Of a stretch of 47,812 nt of DNA, positions 5,690 through 47,690 are shown one piece after another; the stretch's first letter is position 1, and each line of letters starts with the position of its first letter. Position numbers and translations under genes: made by a program. The notes under the pieces are model-generated. The model was not told the DNA's origin. It was given only the letters and a program-made list of their open reading frames with translations, and did no database searches. The stretch comes from an uncultured Clostridia bacterium (GTDB lineage Bacteria > Bacillota > Clostridia > Christensenellales > Borkfalkiaceae): NCBI GenBank assembly GCA_947625245.1, contig CANQNO010000013.1:1-47812 (forward strand), in the 5' to 3' direction.

Positions 5690-5706
5690 CAATTTACAAT
5701 TCAAGG

Positions 5707-5820
5707 TTTTCTTTGGGGCGGGGTGAAATTCCCCACCGGCAGTAAAGTCTGCGAAGTTCTTCGGAACCCGAACGGGTGAAATTCCCGTACCGACGGTAAA
5801 GTCCGGACAGGAAAAGAAAA
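5707..5820 (+). ncRNA. FMN riboswitch (RFN element)
   Basis: The conserved RFN core is visible: 'GGGGTGAAATTCCCCACCGG', 'CAGTAAAGTCTGCGAAG', 'GGGTGAAATTCCCGTACCG', and 'ACGGTAAAGTCCGGA'. The closing helix P1 is a perfect 8-bp pairing of 5707-5714 with 5813-5820. RFN elements bind flavin mononucleotide and shut off riboflavin synthesis or uptake genes. Here the regulated gene is ribU, and a large terminator between the aptamer and the gene is the likely expression platform. Confidence 0.95.
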
Positions 5821-5843
5821 ACGGCGTGTTTCGCTTTATTTCG

Positions 5844-27862: not shown

Positions 27863-29869
27863 ATGAAGCTCACTTCTTTGAAGTTCGTCTCCGAAAAGAG
27901 GGAAAAGGACTTTAACAAACTTAATATCTACACCGCCGAACAGCTTTTAAAGCTCTACCCGCGCGACTACCTCGACCTTACGCACGTCACGCTCTTGCGC
28001 GACGCATATCACAACGACAAAATACTGACGGTGTGCGAGGTTTTAAACGTAGAGGCAAACAGGTATTCAAAGCGCCCTTACGTAAAGGCGTTATGCCAGC
28101 AAAGCGGGCAAATTTTTACGGCTATATGGTTTAACCAGCCCTACGTCGCGCAAAAGCTGACCACGGGTGAATATCTGTTTTACGGGCGGGTGCAAAACAA
28201 GTACGGCATGGGCTGCCAAATGGTGAACCCGTCTTTCGAAAAAGCCGAAAAATCCCAACGTTTACAGGGAATAATCCCCGTATATCCCCTTTCGGGTTCG
28301 CTCACGCAGGGGGTAGTGCGCACGGCGGTGATGCAGGCGCTGCAAAAAGTGGATTGCCCCGCATATATCCCCCAGCCATTGCAAAAAAAATACAACTTGA
28401 TTCCCCTTTCCGAGGCATATTTCAAGTTGCACTCTCCCGCCTCGCAAAGAGATATAAAGGAAGCTTCCGAAAGGATAGCGCTCGAAGAGTACTTTTTGCT
28501 TATTTCGGCTTTTAAAGTAATAAAGGGCGACAGGGACGACGCCCGCATGAACGCCTATCCCGTGACCCGCGCGGAAGTGGAGAGCTTTATTTCCCGCTTT
28601 CCCTTTGAATTTACGGCGGGGCAAAAGGAAGCGGTGGAGGATATTTTCAAAACGGTAAAATCCCCCCGCAAAATGAACAGGCTGTTGCAGGGCGACGTGG
28701 GCAGCGGCAAAACGGCTGTCGCGCTCGCGGGCATATATATGGCGGTAAAATCGGGATACCAGGCGGCAATGATAGCCCCCACCGAAGTGCTTGCCGTGCA
28801 AAACGGCGGGCTTTTGAAAAAGTATTTCCCCGAATATACGGTAAAGGTTTTAACGGGCTCGACACCCGCCGCCGAAAAGCGTGAAATAAAAAAGGGGCTT
28901 GCAAGCGGCGCGGTGGATATAATCTGCGGCACCCACGCCGTAATACAGGACGACGTGGAGTTTAAACGGCTCTCTTTCGTCGTCTGCGACGAACAGCACC
29001 GCTTCGGCGTGGCGCAGCGCTCTTCCCTCACCGAAAAGGGCGACGGCTGCGACGTCCTCGTAATGTCGGCAACGCCTATCCCGCGCACCCTCTCGCTCAT
29101 TTTTTACGGCGATCTGGACATAACCACAATTAAAGACAAGCCCCGCTCGCGTCAGGAGATCTCAACGTCGATAATACCCGAAAGAAAGTACAAAGATATG
29201 CTGCGCTATGTTGCGGAACAGGCGGCAAAGGGCTTGCAGACATATTTTGTGTGCCCTAAGATAGAGGGCGACGACGAGGGCACCGTAATGTCGGTTACCG
29301 AGCTGTTTGAAGATCTTAAAGAAAAGATGCCGGGCGTACGGTTGGCGCTCCTGCACGGCAAAATGCGCGACAAGCAGAAAAACGAAATTATGGCGGCGTT
29401 TAAGGCTAAGGAATACGACTGCCTTGTGTCCACCACGGTAATAGAAGTGGGTGTGGACGTGCCCGACGCAACCACAATGATAATTTACAACGCCGAACGC
29501 TTCGGGCTTTCACAGCTCCACCAGTTGCGGGGCAGAGTGGGCAGGAGCGACAAAAAGAGCTATTGCTTTTTACTGCCGGGTTCTGACACGGAAGAGGCGC
29601 GCGAACGGCTCAACGTAATAAAGAACAGTTCGGACGGCTTCGAAATAGCCGACGCCGACCTCAAACTCCGCGGCGGGGGCGACTTTATGGGTACGCGGCA
29701 GTCGGGCAGGATGCTTTCCGAAATCAAAAATTTAAAATTCCCCGTCTCCACCGTATTTCTCGCAAAAGCCATTTCGGACGAAGCCTTTTCGGGTGCGTTC
29801 GATATAAAGCTTCTATCGCGCATAGCCGCCGAAAAGTACGAAAGTTTAAAGGACGTAATTTTAAATTGA
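27863..29869 (+). CDS. recG: ATP-dependent DNA helicase RecG
   Basis: Branch-migrating helicase that remodels stalled forks and recombination intermediates. 668 residues: an N-terminal wedge/OB domain, then helicase motifs 'GDVGSGKTAVALAG' (Walker A), 'GTHAVIQDDVEF', 'DEQHRFGVAQR', 'MSATPIPRTLSL', 'VSTTVIEVGVDVPDATTM' and 'HQLRGRVGRSDKKSYC'. The N-terminus is a little shorter than in E. coli. No ribosome binding site is clear before the ATG at 27863; a GATAAT lies nine bases upstream, so a leaderless message is possible but not well supported. Confidence 0.96.
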   Translation: MKLTSLKFVSEKREKDFNKLNIYTAEQLLKLYPRDYLDLTHVTLLRDAYHNDKILTVCEVLNVEANRYSKRPYVKALCQQSGQIFTAIWFNQPYVAQKLTTGEYLFYGRVQNKYGMGCQMVNPSFEKAEKSQRLQGIIPVYPLSGSLTQGVVRTAVMQALQKVDCPAYIPQPLQKKYNLIPLSEAYFKLHSPASQRDIKEASERIALEEYFLLISAFKVIKGDRDDARMNAYPVTRAEVESFISRFPFEFTAGQKEAVEDIFKTVKSPRKMNRLLQGDVGSGKTAVALAGIYMAVKSGYQAAMIAPTEVLAVQNGGLLKKYFPEYTVKVLTGSTPAAEKREIKKGLASGAVDIICGTHAVIQDDVEFKRLSFVVCDEQHRFGVAQRSSLTEKGDGCDVLVMSATPIPRTLSLIFYGDLDITTIKDKPRSRQEISTSIIPERKYKDMLRYVAEQAAKGLQTYFVCPKIEGDDEGTVMSVTELFEDLKEKMPGVRLALLHGKMRDKQKNEIMAAFKAKEYDCLVSTTVIEVGVDVPDATTMIIYNAERFGLSQLHQLRGRVGRSDKKSYCFLLPGSDTEEARERLNVIKNSSDGFEIADADLKLRGGGDFMGTRQSGRMLSEIKNLKFPVSTVFLAKAISDEAFSGAFDIKLLSRIAAEKYESLKDVILN

Positions 29870-41136: not shown

Positions 41137-41152
41137 ACGCTTAAAACTGAAT

Positions 41153-41271
41153 AAAATACGGTTTGAAAGGGGAGCCCCCGAGTAAATTAAAAGGGAATCC
41201 GGTCAAAGTCCGGAACAACCGTCATTACTGTGATTGCGCGGCGCGCAAAAGTCAGAATACTGCCGTATTTT
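41153..41271 (+). ncRNA. Cobalamin riboswitch
   Basis: The conserved order of a B12 riboswitch is visible: 'GAAAGGGGAGCC', 'AAAAGGGAATCCGGTC', 'AAAGTCCGGAAC', 'CATTACTGTGATT' and the B12 box 'AAGTCAGAATACTGCC'. The closing helix is a 9-bp pairing of 41153-41161 with 41263-41271. At about 119 bases it is compact compared with the classical btuB type. A terminator at 41369 lies before the first gene of the operon, giving cobalamin-dependent repression. Confidence 0.9.
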
Positions 41272-41368
41272 TTTGGATTGTCACGTATTTTGGGCGAGAA
41301 AGGGTGCAACCGATTTCAAAAGGCTGTATTTTCGGCGCCAGAACGCCCGTTCCTTAAAAATCCGTTGT

Positions 41369-43294: not shown

Positions 43295-44248
43295 TTAATG
43301 CCAGTGACAATCTATCGAAGCTATTGCGGCAGGCATACCGACTATTTGAATATCAAATTTAAGGCTTGTTTCTGCCGTTTTTGAAGCGTTATGTATTCTA
43401 AAGTCAAACTGCCAGCCTTTATCCATATATAATTCAACAGTGGTGGTGCTGTTTGGTTTAAATTCAAGACTTACAATTCGAGTAGGCAGGCAGGCTATGG
43501 GTATATGAATTTTCGGCTTTATAGTTTTGCTTGCATGGTTAAGCTTACCGTGCAAATTAAAGGTCTGTATACGTGTAATTCGTTTTGTATCTATGCTGAT
43601 TATCTTGTAAAAATCAAATCTTCCGAGTAAATATTCAACCAACCGTTGGGGAACGGCAGGGTCTGAAATATTGCTGCGGTTAAGTTCGTCTATAAATGCC
43701 TGCAAGAGCGGAATATAAACCGTTTTGTTTTTCAAAGGTAGCTCGTTCCATTTTTTGCCGGCGGATTTTTGTAGTGCCAGATAATCGAAAATGTGCTTTA
43801 CGTCGTTCCAATATTTTTGGGAACAGGGAATATCAAACCATTTATTGCCAAAATCCAAACTGGACGACAAACGGCTATGCTTTACGGCAAAATGGTTATG
43901 CTTTAAACTTAGTCCGATTTCCCATTTAACATCTTTTCGGCAAATAACTATATCGCGTACGTCGCCTTTTTTGCCTTCGCTGTCGGTTTGGATTTTCAGC
44001 ATAAGAATATCGTCGCCGTTTTCGGTTATCATTGGTTCCATATCAAAAACGGTGGATATTGCTGCGTCCGCGCTTTGTGTTAATATATACTGTAATTCGT
44101 CGGACAACGTATTCCAGGCGTGTTCCGCAGCATGATAGGCGCTGTTTGTTTCAATTTCCGCTTTGCGTATTTTATTGATTTCTTTATGCAAAGTCATCAA
44201 ACAAATAAATTCATAAGCACGACCTTGCTGATTGCTTCGTTCGCTCAT
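43295..44248 (-). CDS. HaeIII-like type II restriction endonuclease
   Basis: 317 residues starting '[20 protein letters not shown]', like the 'NKQGRAYEY' start of the HaeIII family (RE_HaeIII). The core '[20 protein letters not shown]' followed by LKHNH supplies candidate PD-(D/E)xK residues (D99, E110, K116). The partner is a close relative of M.HaeIII, so the recognition site should be GGCC. The gene overlaps the methyltransferase stop by four bases (ATGA), so enzyme synthesis depends on prior translation of the methylase. Base composition is visibly AT-richer than the chromosomal backbone, a sign of transfer. Activity and cleavage position are untested. Confidence 0.85.
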
Positions 44249-45249
44249 TTTTTCTCCGCATTAATTAATGACTGTTTTATTGCTGTCGCTACCTCGTATG
44301 CAAGATTTACGGGAACTGCATTGCCAATCATTTTATAGGCATTATCGGTGTAGTCATAAATGAATTTGAACGTGTCGGGAAATCCTTGAATACGTGCAAT
44401 TTCACGTATTGTCATTCTACGGTACAAATATTCTTTGCCTTTTACGAATTCACGGTGGTTCTGTGAAATAAAAGTCATTTTCGGCGCTTGCGGATGTAAT
44501 TGACATTGACGTCCCGAAGCTTGCACTGTAAATGCCTGTTCGTCCCAGGATTTTACTCTGTTGCGGCTCATGAATATGGGCGAATATGCGCCTGTAAAAT
44601 ATTCGTTGTTATTAATTGCGTTAGGGTTATGCAAATTTTTTAAGCCTGCGGGAACAGCCGTAAATTGTAAGTCCCAAATCGTATCGCGTAGTGTCAATTT
44701 TTTGTCGTTCTCTTTGGTTGAACCCTGAGGAAATTTAAAATCGATATTTAAATTATCTTTGAAACCTATATAAAAAACACGCTTGCGTTCCTGCGGTGTA
44801 CCGTAATCTTTGGCGTTTACCAACGTAACAGTCACGTTATAACCGCAATTTTTGAACATTTCTATAATGTTATTAACTGCTTTGGAATGCCTGCCGAGTA
44901 ACATACCGCTCACATTTTCCGCCAGGAAAAATTTAGGTTGTTTACTTTTCAGTATTCTTATATATTCATAAAAAAGCTGTCCGCGCAGATCATCGATTCC
45001 GCGTTGTGCTCCTGCTTCCGACCAGGATTGGCAGGGCGGACCGCCGATTATGCCGCAAATATTATCGGGGAATTCAGTATCTTTTATTTTACGTATATCG
45101 CCTTCGATCAATTTTGTTTTGGGATGATTGACCTTAAACGTAGCCCAAATTGTAGGATCGTATTCGTTAGCGGCAACGACGTTAAAGCCGGCTTTTTCAA
45201 AACCCAAATCCAACCCGCCACAACCGCTGAATAAACTGATTATGTCCAT
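44245..45249 (-). CDS. DNA cytosine-5 methyltransferase, M.HaeIII-like (GGCC)
   Basis: 334 residues with all m5C motifs: I '[17 protein letters not shown]', IV '[10 protein letters not shown]' with catalytic C73, VI 'FFLAENV', VIII '[11 protein letters not shown]', IX/X '[18 protein letters not shown]' and '[20 protein letters not shown]'. The target-recognition region, including '[20 protein letters not shown]' and then QCQLHPQAP, is nearly the same as I recall for M.HaeIII, arguing for methylation of the inner C of GGCC. It protects DNA from the endonuclease it overlaps. A GGAGG ribosome binding site and strong promoter precede it, ensuring the methylase is made first. Confidence 0.93.
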
Positions 45250-45323: not shown

Positions 45324-45896
45324 TTACCTGAAATCGCAGCAAAGCAGGTGGTCGTTGATAATGCCTATGCCCTGCAAATAGGAGTATATAATCGTAGGAC
45401 CCGCATACTTGAACCCGCGCTTTTTCAATTCATTGCTGACCCTTTCCGAAAGCCCGTCTCTGGCGGGCATCTCCTTTGCGTCCTTCAGGCGGTGGTCAAT
45501 AGTTTTCCCGTCCGTAAATCCCCAAATAAATTTGTCAAAACTCCCAAATTCCTCTTGCACTTTCAAAAATGCCCGCGCATTTGTAACCGCCGCGTTAATT
45601 TTATTGCGGTTGCGTATTATTCCCTCGTTCCGCATAAGCTCTTCAACCTTGTTTTCGCCGTATGCCGCCACAATTTTTGGGTCAAAGCCGTCAAACGCCT
45701 TGCGGAAATTCTCTTCCTTGTCCAAAATCAAATCCCAGCTCACGCCCGCCTGCATGCCCTCCAGCACAAGCATCGCAAAAAGCTCATTGTCACGGTGTTC
45801 GGGCTTGCACCAGCGGGTATCGTGGTAGAGTAAAGATTTATTTAAAAAACGGCTTCCCTTAACCCAAAAACCGAAATCGCACCTCTTTTTTTCCAT
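45324..45896 (-). CDS. tag: DNA-3-methyladenine glycosylase I
   Basis: Base-excision enzyme removing 3-methyladenine from DNA. 190 residues with 'LLYHDTRWCKPEHRDNELFA', 'MLVLEGMQAGVSWDLILDKE' and 'AFDGFDPKIVAAY', the Tag signatures; the zinc-snap residues (an early Cys, H in YHD, and H/C near the C-terminus in 'INDHLLCC') are present. The N-terminus differs from E. coli Tag, with an extra ten or so residues. AAAGAGGG precedes the ATG. It is a single gene, on the same strand as the restriction pair but with its own promoter. Confidence 0.93.
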   Translation of the reverse strand: MEKKRCDFGFWVKGSRFLNKSLLYHDTRWCKPEHRDNELFAMLVLEGMQAGVSWDLILDKEENFRKAFDGFDPKIVAAYGENKVEELMRNEGIIRNRNKINAAVTNARAFLKVQEEFGSFDKFIWGFTDGKTIDHRLKDAKEMPARDGLSERVSNELKKRGFKYAGPTIIYSYLQGIGIINDHLLCCDFR

Positions 45897-45916
45897 AGCG
45901 CCCTCTTTTTTTTTAA

Positions 45917-45945
45917 ATTATATCACGCCCTTTAACTTTATTCAA
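45917..45945 (-). promoter_or_regulatory. Promoter of tag
   Basis: On the minus strand TTGAAT (45940-45945) and TATAAT (45917-45922) are exactly 17 bases apart, just upstream of tag. Confidence 0.75.
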
Positions 45946-45987
45946 TACTATTTCCCAACCCATTTAAATAGTCACTATAAAAATTTA

Positions 45988-46016
45988 TTGATATTTTAAA
46001 ATAAACGTGTTATAAT
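45988..46016 (+). promoter_or_regulatory. Promoter of the structured leader RNA
   Basis: TTGATA (45988-45993), 17-base spacer, TATAAT (46011-46016). Predicted start at 46021-46024, the very first base of the closing helix of the RNA. Confidence 0.85.
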
Positions 46017-46020
46017 ACCA

Positions 46021-46210
46021 TTGCGACGTCAAATTGAATAGATGTTTTTTATCTTCTTTAAGAGATAGTATAGCTATGTAGAAAAAACAGAAGAATAATG
46101 GTAGAAATACCTGTTTCCAATCTGTTTTTTCTACAAAAATAGTTATTTGGCGTCGCAACCGAGGAACGGTATTCTACGGGCGCCGTTCCTTAGGGAGCGG
46201 CGCTTCTTTT
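46021..46210 (+). ncRNA. Structured RNA of unknown class, possible orphan riboswitch or small RNA
   Basis: Folding by eye gives a 14-bp closing helix (46021-46034 with 46145-46158, one U-G pair) and, inside it, a 15-bp helix (46077-46091 with 46121-46135) that encloses a GGTA/TACC hairpin with a GAAA tetraloop. A further small hairpin lies on the 5' side near 46050-46067. Downstream, 46162-46169 can pair with 46183-46190, which is mutually exclusive with the terminator stem 46180-46189/46194-46203. That is an antiterminator/terminator layout ahead of a 68-residue gene. I find no signature of known riboswitches or T-boxes. Length near 190 is also that of 6S RNA, but the central-bubble design does not fit well. 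Confidence 0.7.
46180..46210 (+). terminator. Terminator or attenuator at the end of the structured RNA
   Basis: A 10-bp stem (46180-46189 with 46194-46203, one wobble pair), loop TTAG, tail TTCTTTT. The 5' arm can alternatively pair with 46162-46169, so termination may be regulated. Confidence 0.75.
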
Positions 46211-46251
46211 ATGCCGCGGGTTCGTGGCGAAAAAAACCGGAGTATTGTACT

Positions 46252-46458
46252 ATGAAAAATTTTTTTAAAACAGTTTGGGATTATATCCGTTTGCCTTTCC
46301 TTGTATTGTCCACAAGAAAAACCGAAAAAAAGCTAAAGCGGGCGGCTGCCGAGGACAGGGCGGAAATTCTTACCGAAAAGGATGTGGAATTTTTAAAGAG
46401 CGTAGGCGTGGAAACCGATTTGGAAAGCTTGAAAGACAATTGTAAAAATGCAAAATAA
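46252..46458 (+). CDS. Small 68-residue protein of unknown function
   Basis: Begins 'MKNFFKTVWDYIRLPFLVLS', an aromatic, hydrophobic stretch with interspersed basic residues, then a charged helical part 'EKKLKRAAAEDRAEILTEKD' and a mixed C-terminus. It could be peripherally membrane-attached. I do not recognise it. ATG 46252 has GGAG ten bases upstream; a longer frame starting at 46147 runs through the RNA and is rejected. It is the only gene between the structured leader RNA and a strong terminator, so it is the likely target of that RNA. Confidence 0.65.
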   Translation: MKNFFKTVWDYIRLPFLVLSTRKTEKKLKRAAAEDRAEILTEKDVEFLKSVGVETDLESLKDNCKNAK

Positions 46459-46486
46459 ACGGCGCATTTCCGCCGTTTATTTTTTT
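46452..46486 (+). terminator. Terminator of the 68-residue gene
   Basis: A 13-bp stem (46452-46464 with 46471-46483) ending in a run of T, overlapping the stop codon. Confidence 0.85.
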
Positions 46487-46504
46487 GAAATACCATAAAT
46501 GCCT

Positions 46505-46532
46505 TTGAAAGCCGATGGGAATATGCTATAAT
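46505..46532 (+). promoter_or_regulatory. Promoter of the BRO-N/Fic gene
   Basis: TTGAAA (46505-46510) and TATAAT (46527-46532) with a 16-base spacer, about 36 bases before the ATG at 46568. Confidence 0.65.
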
Positions 46533-46567
46533 AAAATAAAAGCATATCAAAGGTTCGGGCAGAAATC

Positions 46568-47419
46568 ATGATAAAAACATCGATACGGTTTTTTGAAGAT
46601 ATTCCCGTAAGAGCCGTTTGGAACGACGAGGATTCCAAATGGTGGTTTTGCGCTGCCGACATAGCCGAAGCGCTTACAAAGAGCAAAAACCCGCGCTCAT
46701 ATTGGAATGCGGTAAAACGCCGTCACAATGAGTTGTCGACAATTTGTCGACAACTGAAACTTGCGGCTCGGGATGGGAAATTCTATCTCACCGATGTGGT
46801 AGACGCGGGCGGGGTGAATACCGTTGTAGCGCTTATCCCCGCGAAAAATCGCGAGAATTTTGTCCGTTGGCTTTCGGGTATGGGCAGTACGGTGGACGAG
46901 AAGAGCAAGCGTAAAGCGTACGAACTGTTCGAAAGCGGCGTTATAAGTGAGGTTGAAGTGGGCACGGTAAAGGGCTTGCAACAGATCCACGGCTACATTT
47001 TCGGCGGGTTGTTTGACTTTGCGGGGCAAATCCGTGGTTTAAATATCGCAAAAGGCGGCTTTGCGTTTGCGCCGGCTATGTATTTAAAAGAAAATCTCGC
47101 GCTTATCGAAAAGATGCCCGAAAAAACGCTTGAAGATATCGTAAAAAAATACGTTGAAATGAATATCGCCCACCCGTTTATGGAAGGCAACGGTCGCAGT
47201 ACGCGCATCTGGCTCGACCTTATTTTAAAAAAGAATTTGCACAGGTGCGTCGATTGGAGCAAAATCGACAAGCGCGCCTATCTCGACGCCATGAAAAAGA
47301 GCCCCGTAGACGCGTCGGATATCTTCAACCTCATCGGGGGCGCGTTGACCGACCGGATAAGCGACCGCGAAATGTTTATGAAAGGCATAGATTATTCCTA
47401 TTATTACGAGGAAGAATAA
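46568..47419 (+). CDS. BRO-N/Fic domain protein (putative protein AMP-transferase)
   Basis: 283 residues. Residues 1-105 resemble a BRO-N domain, a phage-derived DNA-binding-like module ('[20 protein letters not shown]', '[14 protein letters not shown]'). Residues from about 115 form a Fic domain with '[20 protein letters not shown]' and the complete active-site motif '[14 protein letters not shown]' (H202-R210 core), so AMP or another nucleotide-group transfer is possible. No separate antitoxin is seen; I do not see a clear inhibitory (S/T)xxxE(G/N) motif. The combination is known in gut Clostridia, where its target is unknown. It may act as phage defence or a toxin, which is inference. Confidence 0.88.
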
Positions 47420-47423
47420 GACC

Positions 47424-47690
47424 GCGGATTCGAACACGCTTCGCGGTATATGAGCGGCATTGCGCAATTTAGTAAAAAGATAGTCTGCCGTTTCCCATAA
47501 ATGGGAGCCCTCGGCAGAGCGTCGCGGGCTTTGCCCGCTCGCGCGGATTCGAACCGCTTCGTCGGTATATGAGCGGCATTGCGCAATTTAGTAAAAAGAT
47601 AGTCTGCCGTTTCCCGCAGGCGGGAACCTTCGGCAGGGCGTCGCGGGCTGTGCCCGCTCGCGCGAATTCGAACACGGCTTCGCCGTTTCT
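47424..47690. repeat. 119-bp tandem repeat, about 2.2 copies, structured
   Basis: Copies begin at 47424, 47543 and 47662 (partial); the period is 119. A core of over 50 bases is identical in the first two. Between copies, hairpin arms differ in matched fashion: CCCAT/ATGGG in copy one against CCCGC/GCGGG in copy two (near 47494 and 47614), and the CTTCG-capped stem also varies in matched pairs. Several palindromes, GCGGGC/GCCCGC among them, fill each unit. The minus strand holds GGTTCGAATCC, like a tRNA T-arm, but no tRNA fits. Function unknown; reading frames through it look spurious. Confidence 0.75.

Follow-up and report, generated by a model that had tools for sequence, protein, structure and literature searches.

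We have found that a structured RNA element in a 47,812-nucleotide stretch of DNA from an uncultured Clostridia bacterium (hereafter the window) belongs to a family of orphan leader RNAs that match nothing in Rfam 15. Very probably it forms the 5' leader of a transcription unit with a single gene and acts as a cis-acting transcription attenuator. The linker that follows the closing helix P1 is predicted to have two competing partners. These are the apical strand of the P3 arm, with which it would form a pseudoknotted helix, and the 5' arm of the terminator, with which it would form an antiterminator. The pairings, conservation, covariation, promoter, terminator and placement before genes are all taken from sequence and its comparison.

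The features of the window element and its copies are collected in Table 1. An initial annotation had described a TTGATA-17-TATAAT promoter, a 14-bp closing helix with one U-G pair, a 15-bp helix with a GAAA-capped hairpin, and a downstream segment able to pair either with part of the linker or with the 3' arm of a terminator. The promoter is present in the sequence at that position, and transcription would start at about 46023. Folding places the 15-bp helix and its hairpin as described, and all 14 bp of the closing helix can pair, the minimum free energy (MFE) structure using 12 of them. The leader has an MFE of -75.7 kcal/mol compared with -39.9 (sd 3.8) for 200 dinucleotide shuffles (z = -9.4), none of which is as good. 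Strand 1 can form 15 pairs with 46163-46177, giving a duplex of -16.0 kcal/mol. We folded nine truncated transcripts. The alternative pairing of the initial annotation, the antiterminator A:B, is present in those ending at 46190, 46193, 46196 and 46200, and the terminator helix (46180-46189 with 46194-46203), which agrees with the one proposed, in those ending at 46204 and 46210. When A:B is imposed on the full-length leader, the energy penalty is 4.8 kcal/mol. The annotation had missed that the linker can also pair with the apical strand of P3, and it had missed the second and the diverged third copy in the same genome and the family elsewhere.

Table 1. Features of the window element, its transcription unit and its copies in the same genome
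Feature	Position	Strand	Remarks and basis
Promoter	45988..46016	+	-35 TTGATA 45988-45993, 17-nt spacer, TATAAT 46011-46016; read from sequence
Extended -10, TGTTATAAT		+	TG before TATAAT 46011-46016; read from sequence
P1-closed domain	46021..46158	+	P1 = 46021-46034 : 46145-46158; fold and covariation
P3 arm	46077..46135	+	15-bp helix 46077-46091 : 46121-46135; fold and covariation
P3 apical hairpin GGUA-GAAA-UACC	46100-46111	+	Fold
Strand 1 (AL)	46101..46118	+	Apical loop of P3 with the 3' strand of the internal loop; complement of linker
Linker after P1, whole span	46159-46179		
Strand 2 (linker LN)	46162..46177	+	46163-46177 : strand 1; 5' part A 46162-46169 : strand 3
Intrinsic terminator, whole span	46180-46210		
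Strand 3 (B)	46180..46190	+	Terminator 5' arm 46180-46189; 46183-46190 antiterminator partner of A
Strand 4	46194..46210	+	Terminator 3' arm 46194-46203 and U-tract
68-aa ORF	46252..46458	+	GGAG resembling a ribosome site, 9 nt upstream of ATG; matches no family
Intrinsic-terminator-like hairpin	46457..46487	+	Would close the transcription unit; sequence
Second copy	C10:29108-29305		Window's genome
Diverged third copy	C10 ~28765-28976		Just upstream of second copy

No Rfam family matches the leader element of the window at the gathering threshold, and in 20 loci with diverged members only 5S and tRNA were found, none of them on the elements. T-box RNA was sought in the gathering and permissive scans of the window and at gathering in the 20 loci, and gave no match. 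The four best matches in a permissive scan of the window region (STnc240, Leu_leader, STnc50 and sraL) include the ORF's own terminator and were rejected, as were weaker ones overlapping the leader (e.g. mir-4922, PK-PYVV, suhB and RsaF), which are far below gathering. The same applies to the 1, 8 and 5 matches from permissive scans of three diverged members. These results agree with the initial annotation, which had recognised no known aptamer. Elsewhere in the window an FMN riboswitch (5705-5822) and a cobalamin riboswitch (41142-41281) score above the Rfam gathering thresholds. Among the titles and abstracts of open-access papers listed by literature searches, we recognised none describing the motif. 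A published structured-RNA survey reports thousands of candidates (PMC8040213).

Scanning the GTDB species collection for an exact motif yielded 13 loci, each in a MAG titled Clostridia or Clostridiales, and four of the 13 contain at least two copies of the motif. The covariance model R1, built from 12 window-type sequences, has matches in 20 of the 93 genus genomes, in 37 of 396 genomes of the order (13 of 142 genera) and in five of a class-wide sample of 391 genomes, two of the five lying outside the order; the window's own genome is counted each time. Model R2 was built from 13 diverged members with no window-type sequence. It recovers the window element at E = 2.7e-8, the two models not being independent in origin since the R2 training set was found with R1. 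R2 matches 35 of 297 genomes of the order (own genome counted), and over 299 genomes sampled across the phylum it matches in the window's own genome only. We worked with 131 element sequences, which come from uncultured Clostridia and, where kinship is given, almost all from one order. They may represent 129 or 130 independent places, because L017 is a cut copy of the L048 element and L018, located where its contig ends, hardly differs from one in L021.

The elements have a common anatomy, comprising a promoter at fixed distance, a covarying P1, a covarying P3 arm and an intrinsic terminator. TATAAT with at most one mismatch lies 2-9 nt before the element in 115 of 127 distinct upstream regions (mononucleotide-shuffle expectation 25.8), and in 104 of those 115 the gap is exactly 4 nt. 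Both hexamers (at most two mismatches, spacing 16-18) are found in 112 regions, where 13.1 are expected. Covariation was analyzed in 57 distinct rows aligned with R1, the alignment being fitted to the P1, P1b, P2, P3 and terminator helices and not to the helix of strands 1 and 2 (1:2). When the latter is included 91.9% of cells are paired, and 45 of 63 pairs are changed on both sides. There are 577 doubly changed cells compared with 174 (sd 14.5) after shuffling, a value reached in none of 500 shuffles, and slid controls give at most 140. Changes on both sides occur in 7 of 10 model pairs of P1 (98.1% of its cells being paired), all eight of P1b, all four of P2, all 12 of P3 and 10 of 14 in the terminator helix. 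They occur in 4 of 15 pairs of the 1:2 helix, the strands of which are nearly invariant in the window-type members. This strong covariation favors the initial annotation. A first MAFFT/RNAalifold pass missed P3 because its strands were out of register, and this was mended by subset alignment and a covariance model. Of 109 elements, 68 have a short AAUA motif following the P1 5' strand, where shuffles would give 35.9; we regard this as suggestive only.

Pairing statistics were calculated for 113 elements with a P1 and terminator that could be located by script; 19 others failed the P1 criterion and were left out. A further four, including the third copy of the window's genome, were dropped for mis-parsed linkers to give a set of 109. 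The best duplex between the interior of P1 and the linker includes a loop motif of the GGUA, GUAG, GGCA, GUGA or GUGG type in 108 of the 113. In 93 elements no more than 5% of 200 linker shuffles match this duplex, and in 22 none does; the corresponding numbers for the A:B duplex are 91 and 32. In 98 of 109 elements the 1:2 duplex is 14-20 pairs long, the median being 17. We then exchanged linkers between elements, using 24 linkers more than 7 edits apart and 2000 permutations. The mean energy of 1:2 is -19.4 kcal/mol for the native pairs compared with -13.7 when permuted (z = -9.5), and that of 2:3 (strands 2 and 3) is -14.3 compared with -9.4 (z = -8.6). No permutation reaches the native value in either case, nor when the threshold is lowered to 3 edits (59 linkers) or 5 edits (41 linkers), although these values are not strict probabilities because related elements stay in the set. 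Taken singly, 11 of 24 elements pair best with their native linker for 1:2, and 6 of 24 do so for 2:3. Pairs crossed between elements of one genome, in the 17 genomes having several elements, average -15.7 kcal/mol. For native pairs the average is -19.2, and the native pair beats all others outright in 31 of 49 elements. For the window-type members alone, 2:3 has three doubly changed pairs, a number reached in 113 of 500 shuffles, and slid versions give 1 to 4. The comparative support for 1:2 and 2:3 comes from the diverged members. Since both pairings fit element by element far better than permuted partners, we propose a four-strand attenuator.

The genome of the window has three copies of the leader, one of them diverged. 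This third copy is weak by R1 (E = 0.0065), and is found by R2 with E = 7e-5. A blastn comparison of the two main copies with 45600-46799 as query gives a match spanning only 45985-46456, which reaches from the -35 hexamer to where the ORF ends. Promoter, leader and ORF have been duplicated together. The two ORFs differ by 13 synonymous and 7 nonsynonymous codon changes, with 6, 2 and 13 differences at the three codon positions in order. Since the changes are mostly synonymous and in the third position, the ORF looks to be coding and to travel with the leader. The initial annotation could not identify the 68-residue protein, and it still has no family. It gave no match in NCBIfam, PHROGs or PADLOC, and the best Pfam match (E = 0.061) is below cut-off and was taken as chance. 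A protein search of 40 relatives besides the window's genome found no homologues. A weak similarity to a 51-aa ORF behind the L050 element (26 residues, E = 1e-4, a single pair) is not claimed.

The gene after the unit (46568-47419) encodes a Fic domain (Pfam 2.5e-10) with a Bro-N N-terminus (8.3e-7), and its best PADLOC candidate is PDC-S04 at 6.4e-129. A KilA-N-like ORF, recognised by reading, lies upstream of the second and third copies (G000:C10:27783-28586, corresponding to L008 3784-4587), so that both places adjoin such genes. Two similar intergenic repeats of roughly 110-120 nt each are seen by eye in tandem at ~47420-47690. On the minus strand at 43295-45249 there are two adjoining ORFs, the translations of which read as restriction enzyme-like and cytosine-C5 DNA methyltransferase-like.

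What follows the 131 elements is a gene with a SLOG-like N-terminus in 42 cases (three being fragments of <100 aa), another element in 17, no clear ORF in nine, and another ORF in 63, some of which may be chance. Because 17 precede another element and nine have no clear ORF, some copies may act alone. A same-strand ORF, with a minimum of 40 aa or running open to where the locus stops, starts within 160 nt of 105 of the 131 elements, some likely by chance. We aligned 40 SLOG-type proteins, comprising 38 of the 40 of at least 40 aa and two from the list of other ORFs. Pfam YpsA (PF06908) is matched at E <= 0.01 by 18 of these, the remaining 22 being placed by alignment and N-terminal motif only, and a joint profile of the 40 finds the YpsA structure 2nx2 at 2.7e-5. 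The one PF06908 gene of the window's genome (C11:13860-14258) has no such leader within 326 nt upstream. To our knowledge the ligands of SLOG proteins are mostly unknown. An ATG lies within 5 nt of the end of 36 elements, and in 34 of them a purine-rich candidate ribosome site ends 10-16 nt before it, inside the terminator. In SLOG-type members the start codon is typically at the U-tract, with the ribosome site inside the terminator.

A domain scan of 52 of the 63 other ORFs (E <= 0.001, overlapping counts) gave 14 with BspA-type leucine-rich repeats, 11 with Listeria-Bacteroides repeats, seven with zinc ribbons, four with collagen repeats and two with SPFH domains. The other downstream genes include some predicted to encode secreted surface-repeat or zinc-ribbon proteins, and the downstream genes have no one common pathway. 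Locus L014 (4981-6684) has three leader copies in a row. Behind each of the first two lies an ORF of 83 aa that begins like a SLOG protein but is otherwise unrelated, and a full-length SLOG-type gene follows the third. In two genomes a similar 44-residue protein is encoded directly behind the element (L019 4359-4490 and L071 723-854).

The mechanism that we propose is as follows. The RNA would begin at P1, and P1 and P3 would fold first. The single-stranded linker (strand 2) would then choose between strand 1, forming a pseudoknotted helix of ~15 bp, and strand 3, with which it would pair through its 5' part. If 1:2 forms, strand 3 would be free to pair with strand 4, transcription would stop at the U-tract and the gene would be off. 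If strand 1 is unavailable, the 2:3 antiterminator would form and the polymerase would read into the gene. We infer this direction of switching, with 1:2 as the off state, and the tip of P3 would reach the linker to make a pseudoknot in three dimensions. The balance would be set by a signal, be it a small molecule, ion or protein, at P3 or the P1-P3 junction. In the SLOG-type members the ribosome site lies in strand 4, and so the switch would also gate translation by hiding or showing the start. Tandem copies with their own promoters could sharpen or add up the response, or might indicate a second role for the short terminated RNA.

The initial annotation had seen the layout of a riboswitch or attenuator, and this is supported by the strong covariation, the two covarying alternative pairings and the placement directly upstream of genes. 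As in an attenuator, a covarying intrinsic terminator lies upstream of the gene and is co-directional with it, and there is a mutually exclusive antiterminator (A:B, 0/2000 permutations; weak in the window-type members alone). As in a riboswitch, a conserved structured sensor domain is separate from the platform, with P1, P1b, P2 and P3 covarying in an alignment fitted to these helices; no known class was matched in Rfam by the window element or the diverged members. We therefore file the elements as a new orphan cis-regulatory attenuator family, and possibly a riboswitch. More speculatively, and in our judgment rather doubtfully, they could be a new riboswitch class, perhaps for a nucleotide-derived signal, that ties SLOG proteins to surface-protein expression in these gut Clostridia. 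Sensing would then be the exchange of an 'address' helix, i.e. a long, sequence-variable helix exchanged between sensor loop and linker, with each subfamily having its own code, and one copy's terminated leaders could additionally affect other copies in trans.

The promoter at fixed position, the tandem arrays of up to four copies, and the 17 of 131 elements that precede another element plus nine with no clear ORF would also suit a small RNA that stands free, has a promoter and terminator of its own, and either works in trans on other mRNAs or binds a protein, with the downstream genes as bystanders. However, a plain small RNA would not need a covarying antiterminator. Nor would it account for the ATG within 5 nt of the end of 36 elements with a ribosome-site-like motif within the terminator in 34, the last copy of the L021 array preceding the start of a SLOG gene, or the duplication of promoter, leader and ORF as one unit in the window's genome. 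We consider this explanation unlikely. The initial annotation had offered a 6S-like RNA as its alternative. The element is indeed long and mostly helical, and resembles 6S RNA (RF00013) in its size and possession of a promoter. Yet the RF00013 match of this genome lies elsewhere (G000:C7:18076-18254, 55.4 bits against a cut-off of 46.4), and the element has no 6S match and has a conserved terminator and antiterminator, so that the probability of a 6S-like RNA is negligible.

Copies before unrelated genes, tandem copies and patchy presence might instead reflect a mobile attenuator or promoter-terminator cassette, a repeat that spreads and by chance lands upstream of genes; cassettes of this kind are described in PMC2965389. 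This could overlap with the attenuator explanation. But an exact search of viral contigs with one window-type motif came back empty, as did blastn of the window unit against phages and plasmids, and no transposase was noticed among the ORFs read. The elements diverge strongly in sequence yet keep their pairings, which disfavors a passive repeat, and we regard the cassette as distinctly improbable. Lastly, ribosome stalling on a leader peptide could drive attenuation. An ATG ORF of at least 8 codons with a Shine-Dalgarno-like motif is found in 26 of 109 elements by a loose criterion applied without a chance control, and the conserved 3' segment is open in some copies. However, the other 83 have no such ORF, it is not conserved, the frame through the GCAACC..GGAACGG segment meets TAG in several copies, and an ATG directly precedes GUAG in 10 of 59 aligned rows. 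With no conserved leader ORF among the 109 elements, this mechanism was rejected as highly improbable. Attenuation by strand exchange remains the preferred reading.

The family adds comparative support for a sensor domain and two competing platform pairings, and the strength of that support makes the strand-exchange model directly testable by mutation. Its link to SLOG and surface-repeat proteins gives a handle on the signal sensed by these uncultured bacteria. Across subfamilies the sensor-linker helix varies in sequence but keeps its complementarity, so that nature may here provide a set of RNA switches that are partly orthogonal.

In trp-type attenuators strands exchange by 1:2, 2:3 and 3:4 logic. 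The element is similar in that a strand with two partners would decide between terminator and antiterminator, but its 1:2 helix would be long and pseudoknotted and extend into a closed domain resembling an aptamer, and there is no conserved leader peptide in the 109 elements. The cobalamin riboswitch makes a loop-loop contact with its expression platform, and the fluoride and preQ1 riboswitches contain pseudoknots. With transcriptional riboswitches the element shares a P1-closed domain, a predicted pseudoknot to a downstream segment, a terminator platform and several genes for one RNA class. It differs from these riboswitches in having no Rfam riboswitch match, and in a platform helix that is mostly 14-20 bp and sequence-variable yet complementary. 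The DUF1646, nadA, thiS and similar motifs are reported to have been found by comparative genomics (PMC11109978; PMC6478431; PMC9337991). Like the element they are leader RNAs with a ligand that was at first unknown, and they take their names from the downstream gene. The element differs from them in sequence, having no Rfam match, and in having two unrelated classes of downstream gene, encoding SLOG proteins on the one hand and surface-repeat and zinc-ribbon proteins on the other.
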